Positions 58,644 through 59,210 of a DNA stretch of 64,000 nucleotides are shown here, one piece after another. How positions within the stretch are numbered: position 1 is the first letter of the stretch; each line of letters begins with the position of its first letter. Under the pieces are notes generated by a model that was not told the origin of the DNA, did not search any database, and saw only the letters and a list, made by a program, of their open reading frames with translations. A program made the position numbers and the translations under genes. Origin of the DNA: Fimbriimonadaceae bacterium (GTDB taxonomy: Bacteria > Armatimonadota > Fimbriimonadia > Fimbriimonadales > Fimbriimonadaceae); contig JAMLGR010000003.1 of assembly GCA_023957775.1 (NCBI GenBank), positions 186,001 through 250,000 of the forward strand, given 5' to 3'.

Positions 58644-59195
58644 TTACCCCTTCTCCTTGAGCAGGACCTCGACGGCCCGATCCAGCTCGGCGTTCGCAAG
58701 GTCCGCGAAGCGCAGCTTTCCGGAGCGGTCGATCAGGTAGTAGTCGGGGAACGAGTCCGCGTGCATCGCCCGCATCGTCTTCTTCTCCCCGTCCTGCGCG
58801 ATCAGATAATCCAAGCCGTTCTCCTTCACCGCGGCCTTCATCTTCGCGGCGTCGGGGTCGGAGTGGATGCCGATAAGGACCAGACCCTGGTCCTTGTAGC
58901 GTCGATTCAACTCTTTCAAGTGGGGCATCGACGCCTTGCACGGGCCTCACCAGTGGGCCCAGAAATCGAGAATCACCACCTTGCCCTTGAGGCTTTCCCA
59001 GGTCGGGGCCTTGCCCTGCAGGTTCAGCCACTCCGTCGCCGTGAAGGCGGGAGGAGCTTTGCCCTCCAGCGCATCTTTGAGCGCCGCGGTCGAACCCGAT
59101 CGTTCGCGCTGGAACCCGTCGCCCTGGCCGCCGAACCCTGCGGCAAGGACACCGGCGAGGACGGCAAGGGTCGTCGCTACCGTTTTGTTTGCCAT
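58644..59195 (-). CDS. TlpA/ResA-like thioredoxin with in-frame UGA (putative selenocysteine) in UGPC
   Basis: 183 codons. Signal anchor (VATTLAVLAGVLAAGF), then a thioredoxin fold of TlpA/ResA type: GKVVILDFWAHW, UGA, GPCKASMPHL, LVLIGIHSDPD, cis-Pro region DSFPDYYLIDRSGKLRF. The UGA (58949-58947) is at residue 83, precisely where the first Cys of CGPC belongs; Cys86 is the second active-site residue and the only Cys. A SECIS-like hairpin follows at 58934-58899. Reading UGA as Sec gives one continuous protein; otherwise it is a pair of useless fragments. ATG at 59195, near-leaderless from TATAAT. A nonsense mutation is the alternative. Confidence 0.75.
58899..58934 (-). promoter_or_regulatory. 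SECIS-like hairpin downstream of UGA
   Basis: Eight-bp lower stem GCGTCGAT (58934-58927) with ATCGACGC (58906-58899), an internal loop, then ACTT/GAGT and apical GAAA (58917-58914). The apical loop starts 29 bases after the UGA codon and begins with G, within the bacterial SECIS pattern (16-37 bases, G among the first two loop positions). Lies inside the coding sequence. Confidence 0.6.
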
Positions 59196-59204
59196 GGTGG
59201 ACCC

Positions 59205-59210
59205 ATTATA
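59205..59210 (-). promoter_or_regulatory. TATAAT box for the TlpA-like gene
   Basis: TATAAT on the minus strand at 59210-59205 with nine bases to the ATG at 59195, so the mRNA leader would be about three bases long. Confidence 0.55.

Follow-up and report, generated by a model that had tools for sequence, protein, structure and literature searches.

We found that a gene on the minus strand of the window, a 64,000-nucleotide stretch of the genome of a Fimbriimonadaceae bacterium (contig JAMLGR010000003.1), is very probably a genuine selenoprotein gene and not a broken gene, as judged from its relatives, a conserved hairpin and a complete set of sel genes. By sequence comparison it very probably encodes a thiol-disulfide oxidoreductase of the TlpA/ResA type (the UGPC protein), probably exported, in which selenocysteine (Sec) would be the attacking residue and would be inserted through SelB and a hairpin downstream of the UGA codon. 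A candidate selenoprotein had been proposed here in a sequence-only reading, and this proposal is now supported by the sel genes, by the occurrence of U and Cys in relatives and by the covarying hairpin. The coordinates of the features are listed in Table 1.

The sole in-frame interruption between 59195 and 58644 is the TGA of codon 83 (context ...LDFWAHW-U-GPCKASMPHLKEL...). Translation with this TGA as Sec gives MANKTVATTLAVLAGVLAAGFGG...KVVILDFWAHWUGPCKASMPHLKEL..., 183 residues with one TGA, followed by TAA. The features described in the sequence-only reading, namely a UGA on the first position of CxxC (WAHW-U-GPC) and a frame of 183 codons open on both sides, were all found. Export of the protein is suggested by its hydrophobic N-terminus.

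Table 1. Features of the candidate selenoprotein gene, with positions in the window.
Feature	Position	Strand	Details
TlpA/ResA-like thioredoxin-fold selenoprotein gene (candidate)	58644..59195	minus	183 residues, Sec at position 83, stop TAA; from the reading frame
UGA codon 83, read as Sec; position 1 of the active-site motif U-G-P-C	58947..58949	minus	17 further homologues also have TGA here
TGC codon 86, encoding the resolving Cys of UxxC	58938..58940	minus	from the sequence; kept in all homologues aligned
Hydrophobic N-terminus, probably an export signal	59124..59195	minus	from the sequence MANKTVATTLAVLAGVLAAGFGGQ; low-confidence residues 1-24 in the AlphaFold2 model
SECIS-like hairpin	58898..58935	minus	lower stem of 9 pairs, +12..+20 with +41..+49; small upper stem; loop GAAA at 58917..58914
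TATAAT box, possible -10 element of a leaderless mRNA	59205..59210	minus	from the sequence; 9 nt before the ATG

The best Pfam family of the UGPC protein was Redoxin (PF08534, 79.6 bits against a cut-off of 26.6, 2.7e-22), and AhpC-TSA (PF00578) was matched with 71.5 bits against a cut-off of 26 (7.9e-20). The best PDB match was ResA 4nmu (1.2e-19). With NCBIfam ResA (NF002854) the protein scored 77.9 bits, below the cut-off of 170; by sequence it is ResA-like and falls outside that family. An AlphaFold2 model made from four relatives (pLDDT 81.7) predicted the strand and helix order of a thioredoxin-like fold, with a strand at residues 73-79 and residue 83 placed just before a helix at 84-103. 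The best solved relatives, ResA (4nmu, 1st9) and TlpA (1jfu), share the fold, the domain and the position of the CxxC motif with the UGPC protein, but they use Cys where it has a Sec codon.

UxxC thioredoxin-like selenoproteins had been said to be known from other bacteria, and TlpA-like UxxC proteins are indeed already catalogued: the 2026 catalogue of 119 prokaryotic selenoprotein families includes a cd02966 UxxC "thiol-disulfide isomerase-like protein" (PMC13188914, Table 1), first obtained in a Sargasso Sea study (PMC1088965), as well as one family of UGC TlpA proteins and one of UxxC Redoxin proteins (PMC13188914). The cd02966 protein (described from a marine metagenome; catalogued representative MGB1650493.1) likewise has a TlpA-like fold, Sec for the first Cys of CxxC and bacterial Sec machinery, and is likened to the UGPC protein by its description; the same holds for the PF08534 UxxC Redoxin selenoprotein (PMC13188914, Table 1), which shares the Pfam family and UxxC. 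The UGC-containing TlpA selenoprotein (NF041054, WAxxUGC protein) is also TlpA/ResA-like and has a Sec close to the same position, but it has UGC in a model of 354 positions, while the window protein has UGPC and scored 30.9 bits with this model, below the cut-off of 300.

Homologues with one TGA were found in ten genomes of the family of the window's genome and in five more of the same order, and the TGA lies at the position of codon 83 in all 18 TGA-bearing homologues aligned. In the Fimbriimonadaceae genome G001, in Pirellulaceae, in G115 and in others, the first Cys of CxxC stands opposite this codon, so that both U and Cys, as looked for in relatives at this site, were seen. Decay elsewhere in the gene in close relatives was also looked for and was not found. 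For an ordinary CxxC protein to show this TGA, through a recent nonsense mutation or through an error of sequencing or assembly, a change of one base (TGC to TGA) would be enough, and the window's genome (G000; 3.5 Mb, 96.6% complete) is assembled in 27 contigs; however, homologues in many genomes that were assembled separately have TGA at this codon, the frame is intact past it, the hairpin covaries and the sel genes are present, and such an origin of the TGA is extremely unlikely. Sequencing error and pseudogene were both rejected on this comparative evidence, namely the conserved TGA, a Cys orthologue without sel genes and the covarying stem.

Of the Cys orthologues found in the family, the closest (61% identity) is that of G001 (Armatimonadetes bacterium 55-13, 99% complete), which reads WTQW-C-GPC with the codon TGC. 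None of selA, selB, selC and selD was found in this 99% complete genome by the same searches as used for the other genomes. G115 has a Cys homologue together with tRNA-Sec; therefore the Cys state alone needs no loss of the Sec system. The U/C history in the tree of homologues is complex. Within the family, tRNA-Sec was detected in 10/10 genomes with a TGA homologue and in 48/85 genomes overall (hypergeometric P 0.002, which is indicative only because the genomes are related). Among the genomes with TGA, selB, selC and selD were not found in G154 (73% complete), and one or two sel genes were not found in the incomplete G003 and G152; these gaps are probably due to missing contigs.

Several genomes of the order contain further UGPC selenoprotein candidates, which form a second clade (L050, L057, L072, L073, L088 and L090) and have a TlpA domain (WGFW-U-GPC) preceded by a long N-terminal domain. 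G035 and G049 carry both UGPC types.

In the window's genome, selA, selB, selC and selD, which had been named as the genes to search for, are all present. The tRNA-Sec was detected with 76.5 bits, above the cut-off, in agreement with ARAGORN (anticodon TCA), and SelA (504.8 bits), SelB (365.5 bits, full-length) and SelD (349.9 bits) were all above their cut-offs. The SelD gene has its own in-frame TGA (...HLVDCAG-U-ATKLGP..., L017:1531-1533, G000:C4), at the place where SelD is known to have Sec (UxxK; PMC13188914, Table 1). SelD with an in-frame TGA was also seen in most relatives, while SelD of G157 is without TGA. Two tRNA-Sec matches above the cut-off were observed in G155 (G155:C57:10393 and G155:C13:22416, 77.7 and 53.1 bits, respectively). 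The frame, being open once the TGA is read as a residue, could also be explained by a genome-wide reassignment of UGA to sense or by unspecific readthrough. With SelA, SelB, SelD and tRNA-Sec present, reassignment is unnecessary, and three TGA homologues of the lineage (L045, L046 and L048, in G083, G029 and G035) have TGA at the Sec site and a further TGA as the true terminal stop. The probability of such a reading is negligible, and genome-wide recoding of UGA was rejected on comparative evidence including these TGA stops.

A hairpin starting about 12 bases after the UGA, with a GAAA loop 29 bases away, had been described from the sequence, and both distances were confirmed: the stem GCGTCGAT/ATCGACGC starts at +13 and is extended in the fold by one G-U pair at +12, and the loop begins after 29 nt, i.e. 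from +30 after the UGA. The fold has -15.9 kcal/mol (z -2.42, P 0.009 against synonymous recodings that leave the peptide unchanged), and the 9/9 stem pairs of the window gene have P 0.005-0.013 against such recodings. Dinucleotide shuffling of the window sequence alone gave a weak signal (z -1.64, 12/200), and therefore the comparative evidence carries the case. The other TGA sequences tested from the main group gave z of -0.7 to -4.5 against recodings, while the Cys homologues were spread about zero (-1.4 to +0.9).

In eight orthologues, picked because they share the 9-pair stem, the stem is in register with 93.1% of cells paired against a shuffled mean of 79.7, and slid controls were 26-50% paired. 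Compensatory changes were seen at four pairs, with eight cells changed on both sides and a covariation score of 0.381 against 0.150, and the same stem was recovered by RNAalifold. In the Cys homologues, 3/9 (G001), 2/9 (Pirellulaceae) and 4/9 (G115) of the stem pairs are left.

According to the bSECIS model, the loop has 3-9 nt with a G among its first two bases, the upper stem 4-16 bp, the distance from UGA to loop is 16-37 nt and the MFE at most -7.5 (PMC13188914, Fig. 2). The window hairpin fits this model with its 4-nt loop, 4-bp upper stem, distance of 29 and energy given above; the loops UCAA and UGAA of orthologues show that the early G is not in all. The 9-pair stem is found in 8/12 TGA sequences that fall on the main side of the tree, and the other four have another hairpin, being a shorter one of 6-7 pairs with the loop at +17 in L045, L046 and L048, and a long but shifted one in G029b. 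In the second UGPC clade (G034, G013, G157, G154, G035b and G049b), no significant hairpin was found where tested. Since short, shifted or non-significant hairpins occur among TGA homologues, the form of the SECIS varies within the family. Rfam at gathering thresholds gave no SECIS match in the window, a null result which is uninformative because bacterial SECIS elements are diverse. A covariance model was built from the eight stem-sharing orthologues; within the window its only match was the hairpin of this gene, which it finds by construction, and it scored the G001 Cys orthologue low (21.8 bits). It failed on the alternative hairpins of L045, L046 and L048 and is therefore no general SECIS finder.

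In bacteria, SelB with Sec-tRNA-Sec at a downstream hairpin inserts Sec at UGA. By analogy with this established decoding, SelB carrying Sec-tRNA-Sec would bind the hairpin in the coding sequence just 3' of UGA 83, and UGA 83 would be read as Sec through the SelB held there. Sec83 would attack first and Cys86 would resolve, the pair forming a selenenylsulfide, and this selenenylsulfide/selenol couple may reduce or exchange disulfides of putative substrates outside the cytoplasm. The electrons probably come from cytoplasmic thioredoxin via a membrane protein of the DsbD/CcdA type as the presumed partner; such a protein (DsbD_TM) is encoded in the window's genome. Sec decoding is always in competition with termination, and under some conditions the UGA might thus really terminate translation, with the hairpin and the UGA serving as a selenium-responsive switch that yields a short peptide when selenium is scarce. 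This is very unlikely, as the 82-residue product would be without most of the thioredoxin fold (the helices and strands after 83) and conservation extends through the whole C-terminal part of the protein. Sec insertion giving the full-length oxidoreductase is the preferred reading.

Upstream, the window gene and several orthologues (L083, L084, L043, L045 and L047) have a TATAAT-like hexamer 6-9 nt ahead of the ATG; in the window, only two close TATAAT-like boxes were found before the ATGs of long frames, also 7-8 nt away. Hexamers so near to the ATG suggest leaderless mRNAs. No complete sigma-70 site was detected in a promoter scan.

Since TlpA-like (cd02966) UxxC proteins with Sec are in the catalogue already, what is added here is a member in a little studied phylum. 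A literature search, with most subscription papers outside its reach, found no selenoprotein paper on Armatimonadetes/Armatimonadota or Fimbriimonas, and the text of the review names no Armatimonadota (PMC13188914). There is about an even chance that the gene belongs to an Armatimonadota-wide, lineage-specific family of exported UGPC TlpA selenoproteins, which would have a longer SECIS (apical loop about 29 nt from the UGA, no uniform G[G/U] loop), leaderless mRNAs and, in at least one lineage, reversion to Cys with complete loss of the Sec system.

Standard gene callers would end the UGPC protein at residue 82 or miss the gene. The phylum is added to the selenoprotein record, yet tRNA-Sec is carried by 48/85 genomes of one of its families. 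G000 and G001 form a clean natural contrast: the former has Sec, the complete machinery and the hairpin, the latter Cys, with both machinery and hairpin gone. The pair is therefore well suited to testing how Sec is retained or lost.
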